This document shows, one piece after another, positions 1 through 17,795 of a stretch of DNA of 28,137 nt (its first letter is position 1; each line of letters begins with the position of its first letter). The DNA comes from a virus. Both the position numbers and the translations under genes were made by a program. The notes under the pieces are model-generated. The model had not been told where the DNA came from and ran no database searches. It saw only the letters and a program-made list of their open reading frames with translations. The stretch spans positions 1 through 28,137 of IMG/VR virus record IMGVR_UViG_3300005583_000438; one strand, written 5' to 3'.

Positions 1-101
1 GCTGCTCCTATAAATGGAATGAGGAAAAGCAGGAGTTGGAGTTCGATCTCGATTATCACAAAAAATTTAACGTTCCAATCCCAGAAATAAGAGAAGACTA
101 A
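1..101 (+). CDS. C-terminal end of an unidentified protein (partial)
   Basis: An open frame runs in from the left edge and ends with TAA at 99-101. It encodes about 32 residues, rich in charged and aromatic residues (it begins CSYKWNEEK). The stop shares its last base with the ATG of the next glycosyltransferase, so this is the upstream member of the same sugar operon. Too little is present to identify a family. Confidence 0.6.
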   Translation, partial: CSYKWNEEKQELEFDLDYHKKFNVPIPEIRED

Positions 102-865
102 TGAAGCACTCGATTTTAATTCTAGACCACAATAAGAAACAGGAAGCCCTGAACTGCCTCCTCTCCATCAGAGAACTCGCGACTTTCGATAAAAAAATTT
201 ACTACCTTGCCAACGGAAATTCGGAAGACTATGCCTCTGAGTTTCTTAAGGAAGGGTTGATAGATGTTCTTCTCGTCAACGAGGAGAACAACGGATGTGG
301 CTTTGGCACGATGCAGCTTTTCCAAAGTTGCGATACCGAATACGCGTTCTACATCCAATGTGACCAGTTTGTCCTTCATGCAATAAACCAATCGGACGCT
401 GATTCATTTGTGGATGTTTTACAAAAGAATCCCAAGTTGTCTCATATAGATTTAGCCGGAAATCAAGGTCACGGACAATACAGCGAGCGAGCTCAATTTA
501 TAAATGTAAAATTTTACAACAGCATTCCCAAGCTCGGCGGAGGCCCCGGCCCATTTCACCATCTGGAATGGACTGAGGAAACGATACAGAAATACGCGAA
601 GAGCAACGACTTAACTTTTGTAAGCGTTTCTCCGACGATAGTTGCTGACGTTGGTAAGTGGGCGGTAAGACAAAACCCAGATGGGTCAAAATGGAAGCAC
701 AGAACGGACACTAAAGAGTTGTGGATGGTTTCTTCACCTAAAGAAAAGTATGTTTATCCGTATTTTAACGAAGAAGAGTGGAATCAAGTAATAGAGACGG
801 GGATCTGGGAAGACGGCAGAATCCCAGAGAAGGAGAAGCCTCACAGCTTTAAGCATTGGAAATAA
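101..865 (+). CDS. GT2-like glycosyltransferase
   Basis: A 254-residue protein with a GT-A fold pattern. The N-terminal strand HSILILDH is followed by a helix and then YLANGNSED (about residues 35-43), where GT2 enzymes bind the nucleotide sugar. NNGCGFGTMQLF (63-74) and the strand YAFYIQCDQF (81-90) resemble the metal-binding Q-x-D motif of rhamnosyltransferase-like GT2 enzymes. There is no signal peptide or membrane segment, so it should act in the cytoplasm on a nucleotide-sugar donor. The ATG overlaps the preceding stop (TAATG) and only a weak GAGA-type ribosome site is present. It is the first of four consecutive GT-A-like genes. Donor and acceptor cannot be read from the sequence. Confidence 0.75.
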   Translation: MKHSILILDHNKKQEALNCLLSIRELATFDKKIYYLANGNSEDYASEFLKEGLIDVLLVNEENNGCGFGTMQLFQSCDTEYAFYIQCDQFVLHAINQSDADSFVDVLQKNPKLSHIDLAGNQGHGQYSERAQFINVKFYNSIPKLGGGPGPFHHLEWTEETIQKYAKSNDLTFVSVSPTIVADVGKWAVRQNPDGSKWKHRTDTKELWMVSSPKEKYVYPYFNEEEWNQVIETGIWEDGRIPEKEKPHSFKHWK

Positions 866-868
866 TTT

Positions 869-1711
869 ATGAAAGTATATCTTTGCGGAATCACGCACAA
901 TCAGAAGAGCAACATCGACGCTTTAACAAAAGACATTTACGAGCATGTCGATGGTTTAATCTTCGTTGACGGCGGATCGACGGATGGAACGAAGCAGCTT
1001 TTAGAAGAAAGAAAAGGCCGTGGAGAAGTCATCTACAGGAAGTGGACGAATGACCACGATTTTCAAATGAACGAGTTTGTGAGGCAGGGCCCTATGAAAA
1101 ATGGGGACTGGTTTATTATGAGGGACTCGATGGAAAGATTTAACTTAGAGTTCGCTAAGAATATAAAGTCTTTCATCAATCAAGTCTCGTCTCAAAAAAT
1201 CCGGTCAGTCTATAGCCACGACAAGGGGTTTGCTTTCCAGTACTTTGATGATATGTCTTTTTCGGGTAGTCCCCATTGGGGGCTCCAGAATGCCAGAGGG
1301 AATGCTATCGACTTAAAGCATTACTATGCTGAAGAGAGAGATTTCGCATACAGACTTAAAGACGGAGAAGAGGGAGGTAGACCACTTCATAATTTTATTG
1401 ATCATTTTGTTAGATATTACTTCGTCTACGCGAGGTCTAACCACCTCCTCCTTGGGAGAGAAGGAAACCAAGAGGAGTTCAGACAAAAGGAACACCAGCG
1501 CCAAGTCTTCAGGCATATCCTTGGCGAAACTGGGATAGAGTATTCGATTAACGGGCTTAAAGAGTGGATGAAGAGCGGAGAATTTAAGAAAGACGAGCTT
1601 TTGCTAAAAATAGTCAATGATGAAAAGATCTTAAATGACTTTTATCGTTGGCACATCCTTTCTCATACTCTCGAAGATATCAAGAGCGGCCCATTATTTA
1701 AGATATGCTAG
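869..1711 (+). CDS. GT2-like glycosyltransferase with altered DXD motif
   Basis: A 280-residue GT2-family protein. It has the family N-terminus (MKVYLCGITHNQ), the strong nucleotide-binding motif DGGSTDGT (about 34-41), and GDWFIMRDSMER (79-90), which aligns with the GT2 consensus DWxLxLDADER. The second acidic residue of the DXD motif is replaced (D86-S-M88-E), so metal binding may differ or activity may be lost. The C-terminal half is long and helical, with many His and Arg residues, and has no recognised domain. It begins three bases after the previous stop and overlaps the next gene by seven bases. A weak GGAA lies upstream of the ATG. The family call is firm; the sugar specificity is unknown. 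Confidence 0.78.
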   Translation: MKVYLCGITHNQKSNIDALTKDIYEHVDGLIFVDGGSTDGTKQLLEERKGRGEVIYRKWTNDHDFQMNEFVRQGPMKNGDWFIMRDSMERFNLEFAKNIKSFINQVSSQKIRSVYSHDKGFAFQYFDDMSFSGSPHWGLQNARGNAIDLKHYYAEERDFAYRLKDGEEGGRPLHNFIDHFVRYYFVYARSNHLLLGREGNQEEFRQKEHQRQVFRHILGETGIEYSINGLKEWMKSGEFKKDELLLKIVNDEKILNDFYRWHILSHTLEDIKSGPLFKIC

Positions 1712-2508
1712 AAATATACAATTCAAGCTTCAACCTTTTGAAAGGCAAGTTCGACTTTGAGGACATGCTTGGTAACTTCTGCGCCTTTGCGGATAGGGTT
1801 ACTATAGCTATAAATACCTCCGAAGACGGAACCTTTGAAGCTCTTAGCGAGTGGGGTGCTAAAAATGCCCCCAATAAGCTAAACTTAGTCAATACGGGGT
1901 TTGAATATTCAGACCCAGCCTTTGACGGCAAAATAAAGAATGAGGCCCTACAGGGCTGCAAGGAGGACTACTGCATCCTTTTAGACGCCGACGAGAGGAT
2001 CAACCCTAAAGATAGGCCGAAATGGGAGGCTCACGCAGACCTTCTTAGCCGAAACCCTCAGTTTGACGCCCTCCTGATTCCTGTCATAGATCTATGCAAA
2101 AATCTTTCAAGCTATAAGGATATCGGATCTAAGTGGTATTTGCACAGGAATCATATCGGTATCCAAAGAGGGGTGGTAGATTTTGCTAAATTAGATAACG
2201 GAAAGATAGACATAAAGAAAAGCGACTCGTGCGAAGCTATTTATCAAGATGGGTCTTTGGTAAAAGCTGGGGCAATCCTTAATCCCTCGGCGCCTGGAGT
2301 CCATAAGCTCCAAGCAATAAGAGAAAAGGGCGTCCCCTTTGTTTGGCATACGGGTTGGGTGGACTTAGAGCATCGCCTCCGCATGAACAACTTTTGGAAA
2401 CCCGTTTGGGAGAACAGGGCTGGTAAAGAAGTAAACGACATAATACAGAAGCTAGAAGAGTTAGATAAAATAGAAGTATATCCGCATAATTTGCCACTAT
2501 GGAAATGA
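1705..2508 (+). CDS. GT2-like glycosyltransferase
   Basis: A 267-residue protein with intact GT2 hallmarks: INTSEDGTFEAL (36-47) matches the NxSxDGT donor-binding region, DGKIKNEALQGC (74-85) matches the usual RNxAxxxA helix, and LLDADER (92-98) is a canonical DXD motif. Of the first three glycosyltransferases this one looks most clearly catalytically competent. The C-terminal half has WHTGWVDLEHR (residues about 224-234), which may be part of the acceptor site. The ATG lies inside the last codons of the preceding gene (ATGCTAG), so translation is probably coupled. There is no Shine-Dalgarno sequence and no membrane helix. Confidence 0.82.
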   Translation: MLEIYNSSFNLLKGKFDFEDMLGNFCAFADRVTIAINTSEDGTFEALSEWGAKNAPNKLNLVNTGFEYSDPAFDGKIKNEALQGCKEDYCILLDADERINPKDRPKWEAHADLLSRNPQFDALLIPVIDLCKNLSSYKDIGSKWYLHRNHIGIQRGVVDFAKLDNGKIDIKKSDSCEAIYQDGSLVKAGAILNPSAPGVHKLQAIREKGVPFVWHTGWVDLEHRLRMNNFWKPVWENRAGKEVNDIIQKLEELDKIEVYPHNLPLWK

Positions 2509-3233
2509 AACTGCCTTTAAGCCTCGCCTTCTTTACGACGACGAAAGGTCATTACGATAGAAAAGATATCTATAGACGGACGATAAGTGACCTTTTCGAG
2601 AAGCTGGAAGGGGATTGCTTCTCAGTAAAAATTGCTCATATTAAATTATCGGAGGGAGAAGAGGCTATCGCAAAGGAAATGTCCGGGTTCTTCTCTGAGT
2701 GGGGAATAGAGTCTATCATAACGGAGGGCAAATGGAAGCATAACGACAGCTCGCATTACGTCGAGCACGCCAAGGATATCTGCAAGCTTTTTAGCAGTCC
2801 GCAAATTCAAAGTCAACCATTCGTATTTTGGCTAGAAGATGACTTTGTATTTAAACTATCGAAGGACAAAAACTTGCTGAACTACTTTAAAGAGGCTCTC
2901 GCATTCCTATCTTCAAATCCAGACTTAGTTTGCTTCAGATTCTTGAGGCACGCTTCCGACGTGGAGAGGATCTCCGCAGTCAAGACGGGGTTTGATCATA
3001 TCCTAGTCTCCCCAAAGGAGTTTTCCTTTAACCCCAATCTATGCAGGACGAGGGACTTGTATTGGGCTGCCCGAATTATGGAGCGCGAATTCTCTAGAAG
3101 CGGCACTCATATCGAGACATTTTTCCGCATGATAATGCAGTCTGGCAGCAAAACGGGAGACATAGCATGTTTTCATCCGGATTACGTTTGCGTTAAACAT
3201 ATTGGGACGCCAATTGGGGAAGAAGAAATATGA
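2499..3233 (+). CDS. Putative GT-A fold glycosyltransferase
   Basis: A 244-residue protein beginning with a hydrophobic strand and FFTTTKGHYDRKDIYRRT (11-28), a pattern seen in GT-A proteins. It has the acidic motif FWLEDDFVF (110-118) in the position of a DXD metal site, with DDF replacing DAD. C-terminal conserved-looking stretches include FRFLRHASD and RTRDLYWAA. It overlaps its upstream neighbour by ten bases and its downstream neighbour by four (ATGA), so it sits in the middle of the sugar operon. It is more divergent than the preceding three genes, and I infer the function from the motif and the context. Confidence 0.6.
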   Translation: MEMKLPLSLAFFTTTKGHYDRKDIYRRTISDLFEKLEGDCFSVKIAHIKLSEGEEAIAKEMSGFFSEWGIESIITEGKWKHNDSSHYVEHAKDICKLFSSPQIQSQPFVFWLEDDFVFKLSKDKNLLNYFKEALAFLSSNPDLVCFRFLRHASDVERISAVKTGFDHILVSPKEFSFNPNLCRTRDLYWAARIMEREFSRSGTHIETFFRMIMQSGSKTGDIACFHPDYVCVKHIGTPIGEEEI

Positions 3234-4183
3234 ACCCAGAAAAAATTAAAAATATGGATCCTTTCGTGCATCATACAGCCATAATTGAAACGGATAACAT
3301 CGGGAAAGGCACCAAGATTTGGGCTTTCTCTCACGTCTCCAAAGGCGTAGTCATTGGTGAGAACTGCATGATAGGCGAGGGAGTCCACATCGGAGAAGGC
3401 GTATCAATAGGAAATAATTGCAAAATACAAAACCACTCTTTGATTTACCACGGAGTAACTATAGAGGATGACGTATTTCTTGGGCCAAACACCATTACGA
3501 CGAATGACATATATCCAAGATCTAAGGGCAATTGGCAAGATAGATTTCGTAAAACTCTTTTCAAGAAAGGATCTTCCGTGGGCGCCAACTCGACTATCGT
3601 CTGCGGAGTGATCTTAGGTGAACACTGCATGGTTGCGGCGGGATCCGTCGTCAGTCATAGCGTCATGGATTACTCCTTAGTCAAAGGCAGTCCGGCGAGG
3701 CACACCAGGTTCCTGAGAAGCTTCCCCTTTTCTGACGAGTTTAAGTCTGAAGATGGGCATTCAGGTAAGGAGCCTGTTCATAAAACTGTTTTCACAAACG
3801 GATGCTTCGATATATTGCATTTTGGTCATTTCAAACTGTTAGAATTTTGCCGGAAAAAAGCGGGCAGCGGAGCGGTCATCGTCGGGCTAAATAGCGACGC
3901 GAGCGTTAAGAGAAACAAAGGGGAGTCAAGGCCGTTCAACAATCAGGAGGCGAGAAAATTTGCCCTCGAGAGCCTCAGGTTTGTGGATGACGTAATTATT
4001 TTTGACGAGGATAATCCCTACAATTTAATTAAGAGGATAGAGCCAAACTACATAATCAAAGGTGGAGACTATAAGAAGGAAGACGTCGTGGGATCTGATT
4101 TATCAGAAGTCTTAATCTTCAATACGATAAATGGATGCTCTACCACAGCAATAGCCTCCAAAATAATGAATGGAGACAAATAA
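3230..4183 (+). CDS. Fusion: WbpD/FdtC-like sugar N-acetyltransferase + HldE/RfaE2-like nucleotidyltransferase
   Basis: A 317-residue two-domain protein. Residues about 9-165 are a left-handed beta-helix with hexapeptide repeats (KIWAFSHV, VIGENCMIGEGVHIGEG, KIQNHSLIYHGVTIEDD, then ITTNDIYPR) ending in VKGSPARH. This pattern is typical of WbpD/WlbB/FdtC acetyltransferases, which acetylate amino sugars on nucleotide donors. Residues about 183-314 match the C-terminal domain of HldE: FTNGCFDILHFGH with the HxGH catalytic motif at 197-200, NSDASVKRNKGESRP, IKGGDY and NGCSTT. That family transfers a nucleotide to a sugar phosphate, typically heptose 1-phosphate. The fusion is in frame with no frameshift. 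It starts in an ATGA overlap with the preceding stop. Both domains look intact; the substrates are inferred from the family only. Confidence 0.88.
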   Translation: MNPEKIKNMDPFVHHTAIIETDNIGKGTKIWAFSHVSKGVVIGENCMIGEGVHIGEGVSIGNNCKIQNHSLIYHGVTIEDDVFLGPNTITTNDIYPRSKGNWQDRFRKTLFKKGSSVGANSTIVCGVILGEHCMVAAGSVVSHSVMDYSLVKGSPARHTRFLRSFPFSDEFKSEDGHSGKEPVHKTVFTNGCFDILHFGHFKLLEFCRKKAGSGAVIVGLNSDASVKRNKGESRPFNNQEARKFALESLRFVDDVIIFDEDNPYNLIKRIEPNYIIKGGDYKKEDVVGSDLSEVLIFNTINGCSTTAIASKIMNGDK

Positions 4184-4204
4184 GAGTCGTCAAAAATCAC
4201 AAAT

Positions 4205-4786
4205 ATGGTACGAGACAAGCCACTTCATAACTTCCTATTCGATTTAGATAAAGAGGGTCTTTTTAAAGGGATAAACGTCTGGTGTACTCCGTGGATAGAC
4301 GTTTGCTGCCTCCTTTCCCTCGTTAGATTCCATAATCCTAAAAATCTTCTCGAGATAGGGACTCACGAAGGATATACAACCAAAATTTTAAGTGATAAAT
4401 TCCCCGATCTTAAAATCACCACCTTCGACCCAGGAGACAAGATTGCTCCCGTTGATAGGCCCGCAAATCAAAGAGGAGAATTTCTTTCCCAAGACAAGAT
4501 AGGCCGCTTAGTAAAAGACAAAGAGAACGTAAAGATAGTTAAAGAAGATTTCTTGTCGGCGGTTATAGAGGAGAAGTTCGACTTCATTTTCGTTGACGGA
4601 AACCACGACTACGACGCAGTGGTGGCTGACACGAAAAAGTCCTTAGAGTTATTAAATCCGAACGGAGTCATTGTCTGGCATGATTTCGGAAATGTTAAAT
4701 ACGTTAAAGAGGGCCTGTCTACCTTTAACTTAAAGAATCCTATTACTAGCCTCCATAATACTTGGATAGCCTACTATGAGTCTTAA
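4205..4786 (+). CDS. Class I SAM-dependent methyltransferase (Methyltransf_24-like)
   Basis: A 193-residue protein. Motif I is LLEIGTHEGYTT (48-59), the SAM-binding glycine loop. An acidic strand end follows at TTFDPGD (72-78). The motif IV region is FDFIFVDGNHDYDAVVADTK (125-144), followed by NPNGVIVWHDF (151-161). The DGNHDY and WHD motifs are typical of the Methyltransf_24 family, common in glycan and rhamnosyl O-methylation clusters. It starts 21 bases after the preceding gene with no ribosome site visible and overlaps the next gene by eleven bases. In this operon an O-methylation of a sugar is the most likely role, but this is inferred from context. Confidence 0.8.
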   Translation: MVRDKPLHNFLFDLDKEGLFKGINVWCTPWIDVCCLLSLVRFHNPKNLLEIGTHEGYTTKILSDKFPDLKITTFDPGDKIAPVDRPANQRGEFLSQDKIGRLVKDKENVKIVKEDFLSAVIEEKFDFIFVDGNHDYDAVVADTKKSLELLNPNGVIVWHDFGNVKYVKEGLSTFNLKNPITSLHNTWIAYYES

Positions 4787-5558
4787 GCACCTTTTCATTC
4801 AAAATCAAGGACATTTTCAGTACGCCTCTCTCGGAGATGTTTCAGTTAGGGTTCTTTCGTTTTTAAACATTTCCAAAAAATACGGATTAGACTCGGGATA
4901 TATTCCCATAAGTCCCTCGCTAAAAACTCTTTGGTCTGACGTCTTGGGTAAAGACAGAGTCTTTGACAATTATGAATCAGCTCCAGAAGAATACAGGAGC
5001 GGCGTCGCTCATAAGCCCACTAGCCTAGATCTGAATTATGGCTGGGCAGCTCATACTGTTTTCGAGAGTGTCTTTTGGGAAAACGGATTCTTCGACACTA
5101 AAGATTTAAGGATAGAAACCCCAGTAATCTACAAGTGCGATTATAAAGAAAAAAATGCCCTAATTTATCCTGACGAAAAAACGGACGGAAATAGAATTTA
5201 TAATTCAGCATTCTGGCTGAGGGTCTGCGAAGATCTCGCGGGGAAAGGCTATAAGATTATTTGTTGTGGAAATAAGAACTCTTCAAATTTAAAAGAATTC
5301 TATGAGAAGCAAAAATTCTCCGAAGAATACGCGGCGAATATAGAGAACTTGAAAAAGTGCATCAGTAAATGTTCTTTAGCTTTAGGCTCGTCGACTGGCC
5401 CGACGTGGGCCTGTCTATTCTCTGACATTAAACAAGTAGTATTTGAGTCTAAAAAGTCTCCTCATGGCTACTGGAATTTCGATAGATGCCAAGAAGTATT
5501 ATCAAAGAAAGTCCAAATCATCCAGACCTTAGATAGCGCAATAAAGTCTTATGAGTAA
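4776..5558 (+). CDS. GT9-like (heptosyltransferase-like) GT-B protein
   Basis: A 260-residue protein. The N-terminal region has a QYASLGDVSVRVLSFL stretch (15-30) like the SxGD start of GT9 enzymes. The C-terminal half shows a Rossmann-like pattern: YKIICCGNK (159-167), then KCSLALGSSTGPTWACLFSD (198-217). The latter matches the GT9 donor-site pattern in which a cysteine strand is followed by GxDTGPxH; here it is GSSTGPTW. It is shorter than a full heptosyltransferase (usually 320-350 residues), so it may be a reduced or diverged form. It overlaps both neighbours (eleven and eight bases). Together with the HldE-like gene just upstream it hints at heptose or a similar sugar. It may alternatively be another GT-B family. 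Confidence 0.5.
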   Translation: MSLKHLFIQNQGHFQYASLGDVSVRVLSFLNISKKYGLDSGYIPISPSLKTLWSDVLGKDRVFDNYESAPEEYRSGVAHKPTSLDLNYGWAAHTVFESVFWENGFFDTKDLRIETPVIYKCDYKEKNALIYPDEKTDGNRIYNSAFWLRVCEDLAGKGYKIICCGNKNSSNLKEFYEKQKFSEEYAANIENLKKCISKCSLALGSSTGPTWACLFSDIKQVVFESKKSPHGYWNFDRCQEVLSKKVQIIQTLDSAIKSYE

Positions 5559-6171
5559 TATATTTTATTCGGAAACCAGCAAGTCGAGAGAGAGAAGAGA
5601 AAAAGAAAACTTTTTCTCAAAGTTCTGCCAAGGGGTCGGCGTAGACGTAGGGTATTCCGCTGGTAACCCAAAAAATGATAAAGTGACCCCCGAAGCGGAA
5701 GGGATAGACTTTCATTCTCCCGGCTACGATGGACTGCACCTTCCGTTCGAGGATGAATCATTAGACTATGTTTATTCCTCCCATGTCCTTGAACATATCT
5801 GGAATCCTACCGCATTCATCCGCGAATGGTTCAAGAAGCTAAAGACGGGAGGGCATCTCATAATCGTAGTTCCTCATCAATTCCTTTACGAGAAGAGGAA
5901 AGAGACGCCTAGTAGATTTAATTCAGACCATAAGAGATTCTATACTCCAGCCAAGCTATTAATAGAGATAGAGAGTTCTCTGCGGCCAAACTCTTATCGA
6001 GTAGATTACGTGAAAGATTGCGATTTTGGCTTTGATTACTCCGTTACTCCCCCCTTTCATTCTTCTGGAGAGTTTCAGGTAGAATGCGTATTGAAGAAGA
6101 TTCAATCACCGGATTGGGATTTGGAAGACGAGGTTTGCTGGTGGCTTAAACCTATAAAAAAGGGCAAATGA
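5551..6171 (+). CDS. Class I SAM-dependent methyltransferase (Methyltransf_11-like)
   Basis: A 206-residue protein with a SAM-binding motif GVDVGYSAG (30-38). The strand LDYVYSSHVLEHIWNP (71-86) is the typical 'xxSxHVLEH' signature of Methyltransf_11/23, and LKTGGHLIIVVPH (97-109) is the post-motif strand. These features place it with methyltransferases of glycan clusters that act on sugars or sugar intermediates. The ATG is inside the upstream gene's terminal codons (ATGAGTAA), so translation is probably coupled, and its stop overlaps the next start (ATGA). The substrate is unknown; a pseudo-enzyme cannot be excluded. Confidence 0.75.
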   Translation: MSNIFYSETSKSRERREKENFFSKFCQGVGVDVGYSAGNPKNDKVTPEAEGIDFHSPGYDGLHLPFEDESLDYVYSSHVLEHIWNPTAFIREWFKKLKTGGHLIIVVPHQFLYEKRKETPSRFNSDHKRFYTPAKLLIEIESSLRPNSYRVDYVKDCDFGFDYSVTPPFHSSGEFQVECVLKKIQSPDWDLEDEVCWWLKPIKKGK

Positions 6172-7226
6172 AAAAAGTTCTAATAACAGGAATCCTTGGC
6201 CAGGACGGAGCAAATATGGCAGAATATCTGCTGAAGCTTCCAGAAGAAATGATGATTTATGGTATGATGCGCCGGTCTGCCAACCCAAACTTCATCAACG
6301 CCAAGGGATTCGAGGATCACCCAAGATTCAAGTTCGTCTTCGGGGACTTGACAGACGAGGTTAGTCTTAATAATTTAGTCAAAGATATCCAGCCGGACTA
6401 CTTCATTAATTTCGCAGCTAACTCCTTCGTGGGTATCAGTTGGGATATGCCCGTTCATGTTTTTGATACGAACGCTTTAGGAGTACTCCGGTGCCTAGAG
6501 GCGGTTAAGAAATTCCAACCTAATTGCAAATTCTATAGCGCTGGTAGTAGCGAAGAGTGGGGCAACGTAGATTATTCTCCGCAAGACATCGATCACCCCA
6601 TAAAGCCCCGCTCACCATATGGAGCTTCGAAAGCGGCTGCTCGCCACATCACGAAGGTCTATAGAGAATCCTATAATCTTTACGCTGTGCATGGAATCCT
6701 TTTTAATCACGAGGGGGTCAAAAGAGGAGAGGAGTTTGTGACGAGAAAAATCAGCAAAGGAGTTGCAAGAATCAATGCGGCTATTAAAGCGGGGAAAAAA
6801 TTCGCCCCGATAGAACTCGGGAATCTACAATCTAAAAGGGACTGGTCGGACTCGGAAGATTTTGTGGAAGGCGTATGGTTAATGCTCAATCAAGAAAAGC
6901 CAAAGGACTACGTTCTGTCCAGCAACGAGACTCACTCTATCCAAGAGTTTGTCGAGAAAGCCTTTTCGGTAGCAGGCATTGACGGCTTTTGGCAGGGAGT
7001 AAGAGAAGAGCAGAAGTACTATCTAGCTAACTATATTCACGAAGAAATCCCTGACGTAGATGGATGCCTCGTGCGAATTAATCCCAAGTTCTATAGGCCC
7101 GCAGAGGTAGATCTCCTCCTTGGAGATTCCACTCCAATAAGAGAAGAATTGGGATGGTCCCCTAAAGTCTCCTTCCCGGAGTTAGTCTCGAAGATGGTTA
7201 AATACGATATTTCTCTATTGCCTTGA
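6168..7226 (+). CDS. gmd: GDP-mannose 4,6-dehydratase family (Gmd-like SDR)
   Basis: A 352-residue protein, the normal length for Gmd. It has the NAD(P)-binding motif GILGQDGANM (8-17), a catalytic segment AGSSEEWG (125-132) in place of the usual STSELYG, and YGASK (151-155) carrying the Tyr/Lys pair. Three further stretches are strongly Gmd-specific: NHEGVKRGEEFVTRKI (180-195), LGNLQSKRDW (217-226) and FYRPAEVDLLLGD (308-320). The reaction expected is GDP-mannose to GDP-4-keto-6-deoxy-mannose, the precursor of fucose, rhamnose or perosamine. Close relatives use GDP-heptose, so the substrate could be a heptose given the HldE-like gene nearby. It starts by ATGA overlap with an AGGG just upstream. 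It is the last gene before the replication module. Confidence 0.92.
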   Translation: MKKVLITGILGQDGANMAEYLLKLPEEMMIYGMMRRSANPNFINAKGFEDHPRFKFVFGDLTDEVSLNNLVKDIQPDYFINFAANSFVGISWDMPVHVFDTNALGVLRCLEAVKKFQPNCKFYSAGSSEEWGNVDYSPQDIDHPIKPRSPYGASKAAARHITKVYRESYNLYAVHGILFNHEGVKRGEEFVTRKISKGVARINAAIKAGKKFAPIELGNLQSKRDWSDSEDFVEGVWLMLNQEKPKDYVLSSNETHSIQEFVEKAFSVAGIDGFWQGVREEQKYYLANYIHEEIPDVDGCLVRINPKFYRPAEVDLLLGDSTPIREELGWSPKVSFPELVSKMVKYDISLLP

Positions 7227-7612: not shown

Positions 7613-8723
7613 AAAAGAAAACGACGAGCAAGAGGCGTCGATTACGACCTCATCCCAAATCAATTCTTATTTAAAGACAAATAAGGACGATCATTATAAT
7701 TTTGAAAAGGCCGAATCATACGTCGTCTCCAGCGGAAGCTTGATTCTAGACATGGAGATGGGTGGAGGACTTCGCCCTGGAATCCTTAGGTTCTCTGGCG
7801 TTTCCGAAGGAGGCAAAACTTCCGCAGCCCTTTCTTTCGCCAGGAACTTCCAGAAGACAGTTCCAAATCCTTATGTTTTTTACGTTAAGTCGGAAGGAAG
7901 ATTATCGAAAGATATCTTAGAGCGTGCTGGGATGGACTTGTCTGAGAGTAGATGGTTCGAGTATAAGTGCAATATTTATGAGTCAGTCATTTCTCTGATG
8001 AGGGAGCTCGTCAAGAATAATCCCTCCAATAAAAAGTATCTGTTTATTATCGACTCGATGGATGCTCTAGTTCCTAGAGGTGATATAGATAAGCCTTTCG
8101 AAGAAGCTAATAAAGTCGCTGGCGGGTCGTTGCTGAGTTCTGATTTCTTGAGGAAGATGGCGTTAGGCTTATCCTCTAAGAGTCATACTTGTATTCTTGT
8201 CAGCCAGGTCAGAAGCACCGTCTCAATTAATCCGTACGCCAAGACTGACCCCAAATTGACTAACGCTTCAGGAGGCAACGCCCTTCTCCATTACAGCGAT
8301 TGGATTCTCGAGTTCCAGCAGAGGCATAAGGCGGATTTGATGCTCGGCGAAGCTAAGGCTCTCAAGGCCCAGAAGGGCAAGGAAGATATTATCGGGCATT
8401 ACTGCAAAATCATCTTCAGGAAGACTGCGAACGAGAAGACTAATAAAGAAGTCCGCTATCCGATTAAGTACGGGCGTAAAAACGGGCAGAGCGTTTGGGT
8501 TGAGCATGAGATTAAAGACGTTCTTCTCATGTGGAGCCTTGTCAAGGCGAGCGGCGCTTGGATTACCGTCTCGGACGAACTCTTAAAAGAGCTTCTAGAC
8601 AATGGGATCGAGATGGGCAAGCAGCATCAAGGCGAAGACAACTTCGTGACGTATCTCGAGGAGAATCCTAAGATTACTACCTACCTTTTTGATAAGTTCA
8701 GAAAGATTTTCGATAATCAATGA
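7599..8723 (+). CDS. RecA/UvsX-like recombinase
   Basis: A 374-residue RecA-fold ATPase. Walker A is GVSEGGKT (67-74). A catalytic Glu is expected at E99 (YVKSEGRL). Walker B is LFIIDSMDAL (148-157). VSQVRS (201-206) and ASGGNALLHYSDWILEF (223-239) match the RecA loop-2 and ATP-cap region (GGNALKFYASxR in RecA). It lacks the short RecA N-terminal helix sequence and is closer in style to phage UvsX recombinases, so strand exchange during phage replication or repair is expected. The N-terminal 40 residues are charged and probably disordered. It starts inside the end of the previous gene and ends in an ATGA overlap with a nuclease gene, suggesting recombinase-nuclease co-expression. Confidence 0.9.
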   Translation: MAKPKKENDEQEASITTSSQINSYLKTNKDDHYNFEKAESYVVSSGSLILDMEMGGGLRPGILRFSGVSEGGKTSAALSFARNFQKTVPNPYVFYVKSEGRLSKDILERAGMDLSESRWFEYKCNIYESVISLMRELVKNNPSNKKYLFIIDSMDALVPRGDIDKPFEEANKVAGGSLLSSDFLRKMALGLSSKSHTCILVSQVRSTVSINPYAKTDPKLTNASGGNALLHYSDWILEFQQRHKADLMLGEAKALKAQKGKEDIIGHYCKIIFRKTANEKTNKEVRYPIKYGRKNGQSVWVEHEIKDVLLMWSLVKASGAWITVSDELLKELLDNGIEMGKQHQGEDNFVTYLEENPKITTYLFDKFRKIFDNQ

Positions 8724-9139
8724 GACTCTTTAATATACAAGGCAAGCTCGCCAAGAAGAATGTTTCAAAATACCTTATCGATTGGGAGGTTAAATCGAGA
8801 TCGATGGCCCAGTTTAACATGAAACAGTTCCTCAAGCCTTATTGGTTTGGGCATATTGTCTATGAGGAGTTCCCAGTTTATGGCTCCCTGCTTAAGATCG
8901 ATTTCTTTAATGCTACAAAGAAAATTGCTATCGAAGTTAACGGTCCGCAGCACTCTAGTTTCAATCCTTTCTTTCATAATAATTCACGGACGAATTACTT
9001 AAAGGGAATTAAAAGAGACTACCAGAAGGGTATTTGGCTGAAAAAGAATGGATTTACCCTATTAGAAGTAGATACCAGCGAAATTAAGAACCTTTCCTTA
9101 TCTTTCTTTTCAACAACTTTTGGCGTTGATATCGTGTAA
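8720..9139 (+). CDS. Small PD-(D/E)XK-type endonuclease
   Basis: A 139-residue protein. The core reads VYEEFPVYGSLLKIDFF (47-63), then IAIEVNGPQHSSF (69-81), then RDYQKGIWLKKNGFTLLEVD (99-118). Asp61, Glu72 and the NGPQH turn form the D-x(n)-ExxG/QH site of Vsr/DUF559-like PD-(D/E)XK endonucleases, and the C-terminal strand LLEVD fits the same fold. It probably cleaves recombination or replication intermediates (Holliday junction, nick or recombination-end processing). It follows the RecA-like gene with an ATGA overlap, and no ribosome site is visible. The exact specificity is unknown; a homing-type or host-DNA-degrading role is also possible. Confidence 0.68.
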   Translation: MRLFNIQGKLAKKNVSKYLIDWEVKSRSMAQFNMKQFLKPYWFGHIVYEEFPVYGSLLKIDFFNATKKIAIEVNGPQHSSFNPFFHNNSRTNYLKGIKRDYQKGIWLKKNGFTLLEVDTSEIKNLSLSFFSTTFGVDIV

Positions 9140-11854: not shown

Positions 11855-12798
11855 AAAAATACTTATCCGCATCTAGGGTCAAGCTTTTAGAGACTTGCTC
11901 TTGGCAGTATTGGACTAAATATCATCTCCTCATTCCAGAAAAGAATAACGCGGGAGCGTTGAGAGGAACGTGTTGCCATTTGATTTTCGAACTCTTGCTT
12001 AAGGAGCGTCACAAGCATCACTTCGCCAAGTTAATAAACGAGGGTCATCTTAGAGGCAGCCCATCCATTGATAAACTCGTAGTGAAGACCCTCTCTAAAA
12101 GCGGAATCCTTAACGACGAAAACTACGAGATGGTCGACCAGATGATTCTCGTGGGTTTGCAAAACGATTTCTTCGGCGGAGAGGGCGCGAAAATCGACTG
12201 TCCGGAACAAGAGTTTGATATTGTTAACGAAAAGCCCGCTTACAGAATTAAGGGATTTATGGATAAACCCATTCAGTATCCAGGATCGAAGATGATTAAG
12301 GTCGTGGATTATAAATCCAGCAAAGCTAAATTTAAGGGTGACGATTTAGACGCTAACGTACAGGGGATGATGTACTCTCTCGCGTCGAGAAAGCTTTGGC
12401 CGAAGCAAAAGAAATATCTCGTTGACTTTCTATTTCTGAGATTCCCCAAGCAGCCCGTCCAATCCTTAGAGTTTTCGAAGGAGCAGCTTGCGGGATTTGA
12501 GCTTTATCTAGAACACGTCAACAAGATAGTCGATAACTTCAGCGAGGAAACAGGCAAGACTAATTACGCCGCAGACAAAGCTAAAAACAAATGGCTTTGC
12601 CAAGCTGGTAAAACTTGGGTCTGTCCAGTAAAGAATCCATTCTCTTACTACGGTCTTCACGATGAGAAGGGGGCTTTAATCAAGACTTCTCTCGAAAATG
12701 ACTTCTCTCCAAAAGAGAGGGAAACAGTGAAGACTCTTAAATACGCTGGATGTCCCAGATACCACAACCCCTCCGAAGACAATTCGTTTGACTTCTAA
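11833..12798 (+). CDS. Cas4/RecB-family PD-(D/E)XK nuclease with likely Fe-S cluster
   Basis: A 321-residue nuclease. The active-site elements of the RecB/Cas4 family are all visible: His49 in CCHLIFE (47-53), Asp144 in KGFMDKP, Asp159 and Lys161 in VVDYKSS (157-163), and Gln177/Tyr181 in VQGMMYSLA. One N-terminal cysteine (Cys22, LETCSWQYW) and three C-terminal ones (Cys256, Cys264, Cys307) sit where Cas4 and AddB bind a 4Fe-4S cluster. It probably trims DNA ends for recombination or degrades DNA. It overlaps the primase by 22 bases, so it belongs to the replication operon and not to a CRISPR locus; no repeats or other cas genes are present. Confidence 0.88.
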   Translation: MENKPKVKKYLSASRVKLLETCSWQYWTKYHLLIPEKNNAGALRGTCCHLIFELLLKERHKHHFAKLINEGHLRGSPSIDKLVVKTLSKSGILNDENYEMVDQMILVGLQNDFFGGEGAKIDCPEQEFDIVNEKPAYRIKGFMDKPIQYPGSKMIKVVDYKSSKAKFKGDDLDANVQGMMYSLASRKLWPKQKKYLVDFLFLRFPKQPVQSLEFSKEQLAGFELYLEHVNKIVDNFSEETGKTNYAADKAKNKWLCQAGKTWVCPVKNPFSYYGLHDEKGALIKTSLENDFSPKERETVKTLKYAGCPRYHNPSEDNSFDF

Positions 12799-12820: not shown

Positions 12821-13576
12821 ATGATAACGCCTCTTTTTAAGTCTCACTATTCAATAGGCAAAAGCATTCTCACCTTGGAGAAGAAGGGGTCTTCAGCAAT
12901 TAATGGCCCATCTTCTATCATTGACATCTGCCTCCAGAACAAGCTCGATAACTTTTGCCTAGTAGAGGATTCGATGGGTGGCTTTTTGGAGGCTTACCTT
13001 AATGCGAAAGAAGTGGGTATCTCGTTGAGGTTTGGGCTTCGATTGACCGTCTGTGCTGACTCTTCAATTAAAGATGAGGAGTCTTTGTCAAAGCAGGCCA
13101 AGTATATAATCTTCGCAAACAATAGAAGCGGATACCAAAAGCTCATTAAGATTTACGGCTTCGCAGCCAAGGACGGATTCTATTACGAGCCCAGGACTGA
13201 CTTCAATATGCTGAAAGAGCATTGGTCAGACGAAGACTTGACCCTCGCAATCCCCTTCTATGATTCGTTCCTGCATAAGAATTCTCTGCGCGGTTCACTG
13301 TGCTTCCCTGATTTTAGTTATTGCCAACCAGTGTTTTTCATTGAGGATAACAATCTTCCGTTCGATGGTATTTTGGAGAAGTTAGTTGAAGATTACGTTA
13401 AAGATAAATACGAAATCGTCAAGGCTAAAAGCGTGTTCTATAATAATCGGGCGGACTTTAAATCGTTCTTGACCTTTAAGTGCATTAATAACAGGACCAC
13501 GTTGAGTAAGCCAGAGCTGGAGCATATGTCGAGTGACGAGTTCTGCATGGAAAGCTGGAAGGGACAACGGGATTAA
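12821..13576 (+). CDS. DNA polymerase III alpha, separate PHP-domain subunit
   Basis: A 251-residue protein corresponding to the N-terminal PHP domain of DnaE. The order of conserved blocks fits: PLFKSHYSIGKS (4-15), where DnaE has LHVHSDYS; FCLVEDSMGGFLEAY (45-59); AKEVGISLRFGLRLTV (62-77); AKYIIFANNRSGYQKLIKI (93-111); GFYYEPR (119-125); and a C-terminal SVFYNNRADFKSFLTFKCIN. The HxH metal motif is incomplete, so it is probably structural, not a proofreading phosphatase or nuclease. The stop codon falls exactly where DnaE would continue into the polymerase core, which is encoded separately at 14504. I chose the ATG at 12821 over the upstream TTG, which is better explained as a -35 box. Confidence 0.8.
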   Translation: MITPLFKSHYSIGKSILTLEKKGSSAINGPSSIIDICLQNKLDNFCLVEDSMGGFLEAYLNAKEVGISLRFGLRLTVCADSSIKDEESLSKQAKYIIFANNRSGYQKLIKIYGFAAKDGFYYEPRTDFNMLKEHWSDEDLTLAIPFYDSFLHKNSLRGSLCFPDFSYCQPVFFIEDNNLPFDGILEKLVEDYVKDKYEIVKAKSVFYNNRADFKSFLTFKCINNRTTLSKPELEHMSSDEFCMESWKGQRD

Positions 13577-13577
13577 T

Positions 13578-14216
13578 ATGGACGAGCATCTTTTAAGATT
13601 CAATAAGGATAAGACTTTTGTTTTCTTCGACGCGGAGACTTTCAATCTGTGCCTTAATTTTTGTCATAATCTTCCTTGGCAGATTGGCATGATAAAGCTG
13701 ATTGGAGATAGAAGGGTTGATGATAAGAACTTCTTTCTCAAATGGAAAACTGATTTAAAAATCAGCGACGAAGCGGCCAGGATTACCAGATACGACCACA
13801 AGAAAGTCGAGAGGCTCGGCCTTACTCCGGAGGAGATTTTCCCCACCGTGTCTGAGTGGCTTGACAACGCGGACTACATCGTGGGTCATAACGTCATCGC
13901 CTTCGACCTTTACTTGATTAAAGAGTATTATAAGTATATGGGCAAGCCGTCGAAACACCTTTACCATAAGTTTATCGATACCAACGCGATAGCCAGAGGC
14001 ATCAAGATGGGCTTCCCGTTTAAGAATGGAGAGAGCCTTCAAGAGTATCAGTACAGAGCTTACCACACGAGAAAGAAGGGTATTAAATCAAATCTGACCT
14101 TTCTGGGTAAGGAAATGTCAATAGACCACGACTACGAGAATCTCCATGATGCGCTGGTTGACCTTGAACTTAATCTTAAAGTCTGGAATAAATTAAAATT
14201 CCAAATTGAGGTTTGA
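13578..14216 (+). CDS. DEDDh 3'-5' exonuclease (DnaQ-like proofreader)
   Basis: A 212-residue DnaQ-fold exonuclease. Motif Exo I is FVFFDAETF (14-22; Asp18, Glu20), Exo II is IVGHNVIAFDLY (101-112; Asp110), and Exo III is NLHDALVDLELN (188-199; His190, Asp195), giving a complete DEDDh active site. It probably proofreads for the phage polymerase III alpha encoded around it, like epsilon in bacteria or the built-in exonuclease of PolC. The start at 13578 directly follows the PHP stop (TAATATG); an in-frame Met at 13533 would overlap the PHP gene and add 15 residues without visible domain value. Confidence 0.88.
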   Translation: MDEHLLRFNKDKTFVFFDAETFNLCLNFCHNLPWQIGMIKLIGDRRVDDKNFFLKWKTDLKISDEAARITRYDHKKVERLGLTPEEIFPTVSEWLDNADYIVGHNVIAFDLYLIKEYYKYMGKPSKHLYHKFIDTNAIARGIKMGFPFKNGESLQEYQYRAYHTRKKGIKSNLTFLGKEMSIDHDYENLHDALVDLELNLKVWNKLKFQIEV

Positions 14217-14246
14217 TTTCCTATCTACTTGAGTTATATTTGAATT
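14213..14246 (+). promoter_or_regulatory. Leaderless promoter of the 14247 gene and polymerase core
   Basis: TTGATT (14213-14218), TACTTGA (14226-14232), two bases, TATATT (14235-14240), six bases, ATG at 14247. The middle motif, the -10 box and the spacing to the ATG match the sites at 9428 and 20878 exactly in position; only the -35 is one base closer. It lies in a gap of 30 bases and would drive the Lys-rich small protein and the polymerase. Confidence 0.6.
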
Positions 14247-14507
14247 ATGGCTTCGCTTGATTTTGTTATCGACCTGCTTGAGAAGATTGAGTCTCAGGGT
14301 ATCGACTATATGCTCGTAACCGCTCAAAAGGGAAAGGGTCAATTCTCATGCGATATGTTCTACAATTTTGCAGGGGACAGCTCGGCGGATTGTGCCGTCG
14401 TCGCGGCTAAGAAAATCATCTCTGATATCGAAGCCAAATACGGCCTCAATGACGAAGCCCCCAAGAAAACGAAAAAACCAAAAAAGAAAAAGGGCGGTCA
14501 AAAGTGA
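14247..14507 (+). CDS. Hypothetical small protein with Lys-rich tail, 86 aa
   Basis: I do not recognise this family. About 65 residues form a plausible small alpha/beta domain (LDFVIDLLEKIESQGIDYML, then CAVVAAKKIISDIEAKYGL), followed by a tail of almost only Lys and Pro, in which 11 of the last 17 residues are Lys. The tail could bind DNA or dock on the polymerase. It lies between the proofreading exonuclease and the polymerase core, and its stop overlaps the polymerase GTG start (GTGA), so it is made together with the polymerase. A processivity or clamp-like adaptor is possible by position only. Confidence 0.65.
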   Translation: MASLDFVIDLLEKIESQGIDYMLVTAQKGKGQFSCDMFYNFAGDSSADCAVVAAKKIISDIEAKYGLNDEAPKKTKKPKKKKGGQK

Positions 14508-17080
14508 GCTTTTTCAATAAATTCTCCGACTACGACCTCCAAATCCACGGAGTAAGACTTCCGTCCTTCGAGATTGACAAAAAATACAAAAGAGGCTTGG
14601 GCTTAAGCGAAGATGTTGGCAACTTCGATTTCCTTCGCTCCCTTTGCTTGAACGGCTTCAATGCGCTCAAGCTCAAAAAAGACTCCCCAGAGCACAAAGC
14701 CTATATAGGCAGAGTCAAGTACGAACTAGATACCCTGAAGGATTTAGGCTTCATTGATTACGTGCTTCTAGTCTGGGACGTCATTAACTTCTGCAAAGAG
14801 AACAGTATTCCTACTGGGCTTGGTCGAGGCAGCGCGGCTGGCAGTCTTATCCTGTTCCTCATTGGTGTCACTAAGGTCGACCCGTTGAAAAACGATTTGT
14901 ATTTCGAGCGATTCGTTTCTAAGATTAGAGCTAAGAAGCAAGTCGTTGATGGAATAACCTACTTAGATGGGTCGCTGATGTGCGACGTAGATCTTGACAT
15001 CTGTTACTATAGCCGCCACAGGGTAGTCGAATATCTTGAAGAGAAATTCAAAGGACGCACGGCAAAAGTCCTAACCCTTAATACGTTAAGCGGAAAGCTG
15101 TTGATTAAAGAGTGCGGGAAGATTGCTGGAGAAAAGCCTGAGTCGGAAATGAGCGAGATTTCTGGCCTCATCCCTAAAACGTTCGGTCAAGTAATGGACA
15201 TCGAAGAGGCGTACGGAAAGGAAGAGAAGTTCAAGACTTGGTGCGACGATAATAAAGAAGTTTATTCTATCGCTTTGAAGTTGAGGGGCCTTATCAAAAA
15301 TAAAGGCGTCCATCCTTCTGCCATCTCGCTGTCTTATGGTTTGATGGAAGATTCCTGCCCGACCGAACTTAGCTCTGGCAAGGACAGCGTCGTGTCTTCG
15401 TACGACATGAACTGGATTAGCATTTTCAATGTGAAGCTGGATTTACTTGGACTTCGCAGCGTCTCGGTTGTAGACAACGCTTGCAAAGGTATCGGCATCG
15501 AGATGGATAAGATTGATCTAAATGATCCAATCATCTATCAAAACCTTCAGGATTTGAGAAGTCCCCACGGGCTTTTCCAAATCGAGGCAGATACTAACTT
15601 CAGGGTTTGTCAAAAAGTCAAACCTAAAAATCTTGACGAATTGAGCGCGGTCTTGGCTATCGCTCGCCCAGGCGCGTTAGATTATGCAGACCAGTACGCT
15701 TTATTCTCGAATACGAAAACTGTCCAATCTATCCATCCGTTCTTTGATGACATTCTAGGTCAGACTGGCGGAGTTTGTCTCTACCAAGAGCAAATGATGA
15801 AAATGGCTAACAAGATTGGATTCTCTCTTGATGAAGCCGAAATCCTCAGGCGGATTGTTGGTAAGAAAAAGGTGGACGAGGCAAAGGCTTGGAAAGAAAA
15901 GATCGCAGCCAAGATAAAAGAAAAGGCATTAAGCCAAGAGATAGGCGACGTTCTTTGGAAAGTTTTGGAAGACTCTTCAAATTATTCTTTCAATAAATCC
16001 CATTCCTGCGCCTATGCGTCCCTGGCCGCGCTCACCATCTATCTTAAGTTTAAGCATCCGCAACAATTCTTCTTGTCACTACTCAAGATGACTAGGCACG
16101 AGCCAGACCCTATCTCTGAAATATCTAAAATCCACAAGGAGATGGACTTGTTTGGGATAAAGCTCCAGCCTCCGCATCTTACTAAATCCAAAATGGATTT
16201 CTCAATTGAAGGCAAAGATATTCGGTTCGGTCTTCTTTCTATTAAGGGCATATCTGAGAAATCTATAGAAAAGATAAATAACTTCAAGAACGAGTTCGCT
16301 AACAAGTTTGAAATCTTCAAGGCCGCAGAGGAGTCTAATCTCAACATCGGCGTCCTTTGTTCTTTGATTCAGGCCGGTGCGTTAGAGGGCTTTAAGCAGT
16401 CTAGAAGCCGAGTGGTGCTCGAATCTCAATTATGGAATATCCTCACCGAGAAGGAGAAGAAGTTCTCGATGATGTTCGCGGAGAAGAATGAGTTCGATCT
16501 GATTGAAATCATTAAGCACCTAAGAGTCTTCAAGGACGAAAAAGGCAAGCCCATAATTAAAGATTCCAGATACGAAACGATTAAAAAGAATTACGCCCCG
16601 TATCTCGAAATCTATAATCAAAATAAGAATTCTGAGAACTTTGCCAACTGGTATTATGAAAAGATGCTTTTGGGCTATACTTACAACAAGACTCTGATAG
16701 ATATTTTTTCAGATAAGCGGCCTGACCTTCGTCCTATTAGGGAGATTAATCAGATGGCCCAGGGGCAAGAGGCGATATTTATCGGTAGAGCTGAAGATTG
16801 CTACGAAGGCGTTTCTAGAGAAAAGAAGACCAAGTATTTCAAGACGGTGGTCTCAGACGAGAGCGACTCTATTAAGGTCATGATTTTCAGCGACAAGAAA
16901 GAGGAATGCGCAAGTATAAATAATGGCCTGCCAAAGGATGACAACATCCTCATAGTAAGAGGCAGGAAGATGGACGGCGTAGTTTTCGCAGATATCATAG
17001 GGATTCAAGACAATAAGGTCTATACTAAATTGTCTGAATTAAAGAAGATTTTAGTGGACGACGAGAAGCAAAAGAAGTAA
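14504..17080 (+). CDS. dnaE: DNA polymerase III alpha, catalytic core without PHP domain
   Basis: An 858-residue C-family polymerase starting at GTG with a good ribosome site (AGGGCGG, 14491-14497, six bases away). The palm motif GLGRGSAAGS (105-114) matches DnaE PGRGSGAGS. CDVDLDIC (160-167) supplies Asp161 and Asp163, and VKLDLLGLRSV (310-320) supplies the third catalytic Asp313. SFNKSHSCAYA is the conserved finger motif. C-terminal parts include an HhH region (IRFGLLSIKGISEKSI) and an OB-like region (EAIFIGRAED onwards, with FKTVVSDESDSIKVMIFSD). Residue 1 begins right after the PHP boundary of DnaE, whose PHP portion is encoded at 12821. Total PHP plus core length, about 1,109, is close to full DnaE. 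It is the replicative enzyme of the phage. Confidence 0.94.
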   Translation: MSFFNKFSDYDLQIHGVRLPSFEIDKKYKRGLGLSEDVGNFDFLRSLCLNGFNALKLKKDSPEHKAYIGRVKYELDTLKDLGFIDYVLLVWDVINFCKENSIPTGLGRGSAAGSLILFLIGVTKVDPLKNDLYFERFVSKIRAKKQVVDGITYLDGSLMCDVDLDICYYSRHRVVEYLEEKFKGRTAKVLTLNTLSGKLLIKECGKIAGEKPESEMSEISGLIPKTFGQVMDIEEAYGKEEKFKTWCDDNKEVYSIALKLRGLIKNKGVHPSAISLSYGLMEDSCPTELSSGKDSVVSSYDMNWISIFNVKLDLLGLRSVSVVDNACKGIGIEMDKIDLNDPIIYQNLQDLRSPHGLFQIEADTNFRVCQKVKPKNLDELSAVLAIARPGALDYADQYALFSNTKTVQSIHPFFDDILGQTGGVCLYQEQMMKMANKIGFSLDEAEILRRIVGKKKVDEAKAWKEKIAAKIKEKALSQEIGDVLWKVLEDSSNYSFNKSHSCAYASLAALTIYLKFKHPQQFFLSLLKMTRHEPDPISEISKIHKEMDLFGIKLQPPHLTKSKMDFSIEGKDIRFGLLSIKGISEKSIEKINNFKNEFANKFEIFKAAEESNLNIGVLCSLIQAGALEGFKQSRSRVVLESQLWNILTEKEKKFSMMFAEKNEFDLIEIIKHLRVFKDEKGKPIIKDSRYETIKKNYAPYLEIYNQNKNSENFANWYYEKMLLGYTYNKTLIDIFSDKRPDLRPIREINQMAQGQEAIFIGRAEDCYEGVSREKKTKYFKTVVSDESDSIKVMIFSDKKEECASINNGLPKDDNILIVRGRKMDGVVFADIIGIQDNKVYTKLSELKKILVDDEKQKK

Positions 17081-17090
17081 TATATTTCAT

Positions 17091-17795
17091 ATGATTCAAT
17101 TCTATAAACCCAATCCCAAAGTAACGGGGTGCGCTTGCTCTTTTTGGCTGAATAGAGACGGCACAATCATGTCCTCCTTTATCAAGCAGGACTCTTGGAA
17201 TGACGCAAAAAAGACAGGAAGTTTTTCTAAGAATAAAGATAATCCGAAAGCTAGAGTTATCGTCAAGCTGAACCGAATTGAGATAGCGGGGATTATCGAC
17301 ACTATAGAGTCTAATAGAGAATTCTCCGTTTATCACAATAGCGAGAAGCAAACTCTTCAAATCAGATTTTGCCCCTATCTCGACAGGGAAGACCAAGTAA
17401 CGGAAATCGGTCAGTTCTCCGGAGAAGTCTCGGTAAAGAATGATAAAGCGAGCTTAACTGGACCGGCGTTCGGAGTAATCACCAAGAAGGCTAAGGCTCA
17501 GAAGGGATTCTCTTTCTCCGTCAATAAGCAGGACAAGGAAGACTCTACCAGCAAATCGAGCTTCCTTATTGGCTTTACGTTTCCAGAAGCTAGACTTCTT
17601 AAGAATGATTTATCAGTTATCTTGAACGAGACTTTCGCTTGGCCGAAGAGCAGGGAAGACGCCGCCCCCATAGATGGAACAGGCTTTAATCCTCCCGCGA
17701 ATGAAGCCCCGAGTCTCCCCTCCCAAACTCCCCAGAAGGCCGAGCCCGCACGAAAAGACCCCGCCCCCGTAGCTCAAGAAGAAGACCTTTGGTAG
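17091..17795 (+). CDS. Putative single-stranded DNA-binding protein
   Basis: A 234-residue protein. The N-terminal half is beta-rich, with a run of basic and aromatic residues (SFWLNRDGTIMSSFIKQDSW, then ARVIVKLNRIEIAGI and REFSVYHNSEKQTLQIRF) suited to nucleic acid binding. The C-terminal 45 residues are Pro/Ala-rich and end in an acidic tip with an aromatic last residue, EEDLW. That layout (DNA-binding core, flexible Pro-rich linker, acidic tip) is the hallmark of bacterial SSB, whose tail recruits replication proteins. It lies directly after the polymerase. I cannot assign the core to the OB-fold SSB family by eye; a Pur- or Whirly-like fold is also possible. Confidence 0.55.
   Translation: MIQFYKPNPKVTGCACSFWLNRDGTIMSSFIKQDSWNDAKKTGSFSKNKDNPKARVIVKLNRIEIAGIIDTIESNREFSVYHNSEKQTLQIRFCPYLDREDQVTEIGQFSGEVSVKNDKASLTGPAFGVITKKAKAQKGFSFSVNKQDKEDSTSKSSFLIGFTFPEARLLKNDLSVILNETFAWPKSREDAAPIDGTGFNPPANEAPSLPSQTPQKAEPARKDPAPVAQEEDLW

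Follow-up and report, generated by a model that had tools for sequence, protein, structure and literature searches.

A DnaE-type polymerase with its PHP domain and catalytic core in separate genes in a large uncultured phage family

The fused DNA polymerase III of E. coli requires its degenerate PHP domain to be stable and unfolds as a single unit; loss of the PHP metal ligands accompanies separate exonucleases (PMC3666897). PolC is a single chain with the exonuclease inserted within the PHP domain (PMC3919608). In the other phages and bacteria that we examined, PHP is as a rule fused to the core (61 of 66 loci from the bacterial collection are fused; the other five have no PHP match and are mostly shortened frames). 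The arrangement described here bears on why a PHP domain, even a dead one, is always retained in C-family replicases: evolution has itself run the experiment of cutting the domain free, and throughout a large lineage of phages the freed domain persists under strong selection. Since the separation is natural, omission and add-back of the domain, with no engineered cuts, can probe what it does structurally, where it binds and how it contributes to proofreading.

We analysed the 28,137-nt IMG/VR virus record IMGVR_UViG_3300005583_000438 (the window), whose replication genes follow the order RecA-like protein, proteins of 139 and 93 aa, DnaB helicase, Toprim primase, PD-(D/E)XK nuclease, PHP, DEDDh exonuclease, 86-aa protein, DnaE core and 234-aa protein. 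As the initial annotation proposed, PHP and the polymerase core are separate genes, with the exonuclease and 86-aa genes between them (Table 1), and together they approach full DnaE length, at 1109 aa. The PHP gene runs from an ATG at 12821 to its stop at 13576, with a TTG at 12788 as an alternative start (relatives use the ATG), and matches positions 59-285 of the 1190 of phrog_405. The exonuclease gene starts at ATG 13578 and the core gene at GTG 14504; the core matches positions 322-1086 of phrog_405 and the Pfam profiles DNA_pol3_alpha (9.6e-53), finger (7.4e-32) and HHH (1.7e-16).

Table 1. The four genes at the split polymerase locus of the window
Feature	Position	Strand	Evidence
Free-standing PHP domain, 251 aa, metal site degenerate	12821..13576	+	Pfam PHP, 1.4e-10; structure model; replaced ligand positions
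DEDDh 3'-5' exonuclease, putative proofreader, 212 aa	13578..14216	+	RNase_T, 3.7e-12; phrog_192, 3.4e-23
86-aa protein, patchy small family, Lys-rich tail in the window	14247..14507	+	Homologues between exonuclease and core
DnaE catalytic core without PHP, 858 aa	14504..17080	+	Pfam and phrog_405; invariant catalytic residues; PDB matches

Elsewhere in the window, the 139-aa protein (8720-9139) is endonuclease-like (phrog_9084, 1.3e-7; phrog_559, 1.2e-8) and is kept in most relatives reaching that far, usually near the RecA-like gene. The 234-aa protein directly downstream of the core (17091-17795) has an acidic C-terminus and no family match; it may be a single-strand binding protein, judging only from its position and tail. 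Upstream of the replication genes lies a block of glycosyltransferase-, sugar- and methyltransferase-like genes (101-7226; translations judged by eye). The DnaN clamp profile PF02768 gave no match in ten records.

A core scan together with core and PHP profile scans yielded 189 IMG/VR loci among the matches listed, from a collection holding at least 478 relatives of the core and at least 577 of the PHP protein. PHP, exonuclease and core lie in that order, on one strand and in separate frames, in 167 of these loci; the remainder are truncated, interrupted, incomplete or fragmentary, and no PHP-core fusion occurs among the 189. The gene order, which the initial annotation suggested seeking in other phages, is found in every one of the 130 loci that have all three genes once duplicates are removed, none of them fused. 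A continuous dnaE gene or a frameshift was likewise sought among the relatives, and neither was seen, except for a truncated contig with a broken PHP gene (L031); frameshift or assembly error is ruled out by more than 130 relatives with separate frames. Distant members (43-55% identity, from metagenome-assembled bacterial genomes) have the same arrangement, and large records of 158-203 kb, searched with both profiles, hold one PHP and one core gene apiece, the core gene spanning the record's ends in one of them. These data confirm that the split belongs to a large uncultured phage family and extends far wider than the window. We found no published description of it in the literature searched. 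The gaps between the three genes are insertion sites, in many relatives occupied by glycosyltransferases, cupins, an IMP dehydrogenase/GMP reductase-like protein and others.

The exonuclease residues D18, E20, D110, H190 and D195, which place it in the DEDDh type, are invariant in 108 loci, as are D161, D163, D165 and D313 of the core palm and its GRGS motif. The core matches Taq and E. coli Pol III alpha in the PDB and has the palm, finger and HHH domains of a DnaE-type C-family polymerase with the catalytic Asp residues; the N-terminal PHP domain is absent from the chain and forms a separate gene in all relatives seen. These invariant motifs are consistent with exonuclease and polymerase activity, without amounting to proof. 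Structure predictions were made on single chains; that of the core is of mediocre quality (pLDDT 73, pTM 0.47), which may reflect either a shallow alignment or a core that is unstable alone. The E. coli epsilon subunit binds PHP by its C-terminal tail. The exonuclease of the window ends about 10 residues past its nuclease domain and thus has no epsilon-like tail, so that any docking on PHP would need to differ from that in E. coli.

The free PHP protein is confidently predicted to have the DnaE PHP fold, its model (pLDDT 86) matching the PHP domains of E. coli and Taq DnaE across its length (TM 0.77 for Taq). With reference ligand positions taken from Taq DnaE (PMC3666897), alignments to this protein and to fused DnaEs indicate that most of the nine metal-ligand positions hold non-ligand residues: E72 of Taq corresponds to R74, H95 to K94, D212 to S204 and H214 to Y/F206, and the N-terminal HxH is absent, the assignment being approximate at positions 5, 7, 14 and 146 and the N-terminal ligands aligned with some uncertainty. 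The protein does not carry the full set of nine metal ligands of an active PHP nuclease. The former ligand positions are nonetheless unusually conserved (entropy 0.49 versus 1.57 bits for random positions, p 1e-4), and the median dN/dS over 20 pairs is 0.054 for PHP, 0.033 for the exonuclease and 0.031 for the core. Judged from its sequences, the free PHP is under strong selection and functional, but not as a metal enzyme.

The locus had been read as a natural dissection of a replicase into a PHP subunit, a proofreader, a small adaptor and a core. This holds for PHP, proofreader and core, which are conserved and appear functional, but is not supported for the adaptor. The 86-aa family is real, yet only 64 of 108 non-redundant loci (~60%) have a member at this place, ahead of the core and after the exonuclease, and its N-terminal part is conserved while the tail is variable, mostly acidic and Lys-rich in a minority, which argues against an essential Lys-rich adaptor. 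A Pfam scan of the family returned weak unrelated matches only; the protein may be an accessory subunit, though not a general one. The promoter proposed ahead of its gene did not hold up either: the candidate (TTGATT-16-TATATT, 9/12) is weak and ends 7 bases before the ATG, so that the transcript would be almost leaderless, and in 31 relatives the exonuclease and core genes share a 4-base overlap, with no space between them for a promoter. The same observations, with the 4 bases (GTGA) shared by the 86-aa and core genes, leave the suggestion that the parts are produced in different amounts unsupported.

Aligned with fused DnaEs, the PHP protein ends at SDEFCMESWKGQRD and the core starts at MSFFNKFSDYDLQIHGVRLPSF, and the only part left unmatched at the cut is some 10-13 residues of the linker helix; because the loss is limited to these residues, its placement at the domain boundary was correct. 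There is next to no chance that a fused gene in decay or wrongly assembled, or one rejoined by intein or intron splicing, accounts for the split; this explanation is refuted by the conserved separate frames. In its favour, the core is broken by a split intein in three relatives (L022:9944-13000, L114:3717-6698 and L218:5971-8955), inserted after the FNK and before the SHS of the motif FNKSHS (Pfam Intein_splicing at 5.5e-7, 7e-8 and 2.4e-4, each below the profile's cut-off), and dnaE is interrupted otherwise in some phages, by an HNH endonuclease gene within the core of Bacillus phage KLEB27-3 (L192:3927-8297) and, in Alicyclobacillus phage KKP_3916 (L208:5836-12246), into four open frames across 6 kb, perhaps by introns. 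Inteins occur, however, only inside the core of some relatives and not at the PHP/core break, where PHP stops 5-20 aa past its domain and the core has its own start codon. An intein or intron at the break was rejected, since neither the end of PHP nor the start of the core shows an intein sequence and the window has no Rfam match; moreover, the exonuclease gene lies inside the gap, frames overlap in many relatives, and purifying selection is strong. Two Krampus-type cores (L294:5187-8378 and L315:2583-6545) carry, at the same place within the core, in-frame insertions of ~276 and ~280 aa, possibly inteins.

We consider it likely that the catalytically dead PHP acts as a scaffold subunit, docking in trans on the core and probably holding the exonuclease. 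On this reading, the N-terminal PHP domain of a DnaE-type (C-family) replicase became a separate subunit in the ancestor from which these phages descend; now without its metal site, it would serve as a scaffold, docking non-covalently on the core at the usual site of the fused domain, stabilising the core, and probably holding the adjacent DEDDh exonuclease, which would proofread; we infer that the resulting enzyme is the phage's replicase. A dead PHP with an intact DEDDh exonuclease fits the E. coli Pol III pattern, which favours a trans-acting scaffold, as does the isolated phage Krampus, in which PHP and core are also split although most of its relatives are fused. The constant gene order without fusion, the single core clade, the low dN/dS, the tracking of PHP and core distances, the fold match and the conserved former ligand positions also speak for this reading; the mediocre core model and the missing epsilon-like tail speak against it. 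That PHP is a dissociable replisome subunit ferrying the exonuclease on and off the core is unlikely; if true, proofreading would be controlled by subunit exchange, not by movement within one chain. It is improbable that PHP no longer works with the core and is an independent nuclease or pyrophosphatase, adjacent by history. One report links the PHP domain of fused E. coli DnaE to pyrophosphatase activity (PMC4822814), and in record G011 a distance of ~8 kb, with genes on the opposite strand, separates the core from PHP and exonuclease, so that the parts can come from separate transcripts; yet other residues stand in for the metal ligands (E to R, H to K, D to S and H to Y/F), and PHP-core co-inheritance is complete in the loci seen. 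Quite improbable, too, is a PHP that binds the exonuclease only, as a proofreading sub-complex without stable docking on the core: the two genes overlap or abut in 42 of 130 loci and remain together in G011, away from the core, but gaps of more than 150 bases between them are common (72/130). PHP distances follow those of the core at least as closely as those of the exonuclease (correlation 0.915 in 108 loci, versus 0.870), although shared phylogeny alone could yield much of the former value, and in fused Pol III the PHP domain is an integral part of the structure (PMC3666897).

The cores of this lineage form a single branch (22/22 rows, 100/100) on a long stem (1.52). The closest known case is that of the Krampusvirus Microbacterium phages, which are isolated and viable and likewise divide PHP and DnaE core between two neighbouring genes, each of them annotated as DnaE-like (Krampus genes 56/57, RikSengupta genes 61/63). 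Their cut falls further downstream, leaving the linker helix on PHP, and their PHP keeps the metal ligands that the window PHP has lost; no exonuclease of the window's family was found near the split in the stretch searched. Krampusvirus cores group with fused Pbunavirus and Wifcevirus cores, where long branches meet, and the relatives of Krampus PHP are 21 fused and 3 split. The separate branches and different cut point speak against a common origin, and the two splits are apparently independent since the Krampus cut lies further downstream and its PHP retains the ligands, the long branches advising caution.

Fused DnaEs of phages and bacteria (Moab, Itza, JG024, Patescibacteria) have the same domains and catalytic motifs as the window, but their PHP is covalently joined to the core; the window core is ~24-32% identical to those of cultured phages among the matches listed, and JG024 has a phrog_192 exonuclease directly upstream of its polymerase. 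PolC, like the window system, combines a polymerase with PHP and a DEDDh exonuclease, and the exonuclease profile matches the PolC-type exonuclease 2p1j (1.8e-6). The close likeness to PolC that had been drawn is not supported: the exonuclease of the window is a separate gene, located between PHP and core, rather than an insertion within PHP in one chain, and both other parts are DnaE-type. A PolC origin was rejected, core and PHP scoring far better against DnaE in profile and fold matches. Cyanobacterial DnaE is also encoded by two genes, but there the break lies in the core and the halves are spliced by a split intein, whereas the window lineage has no intein at the break.
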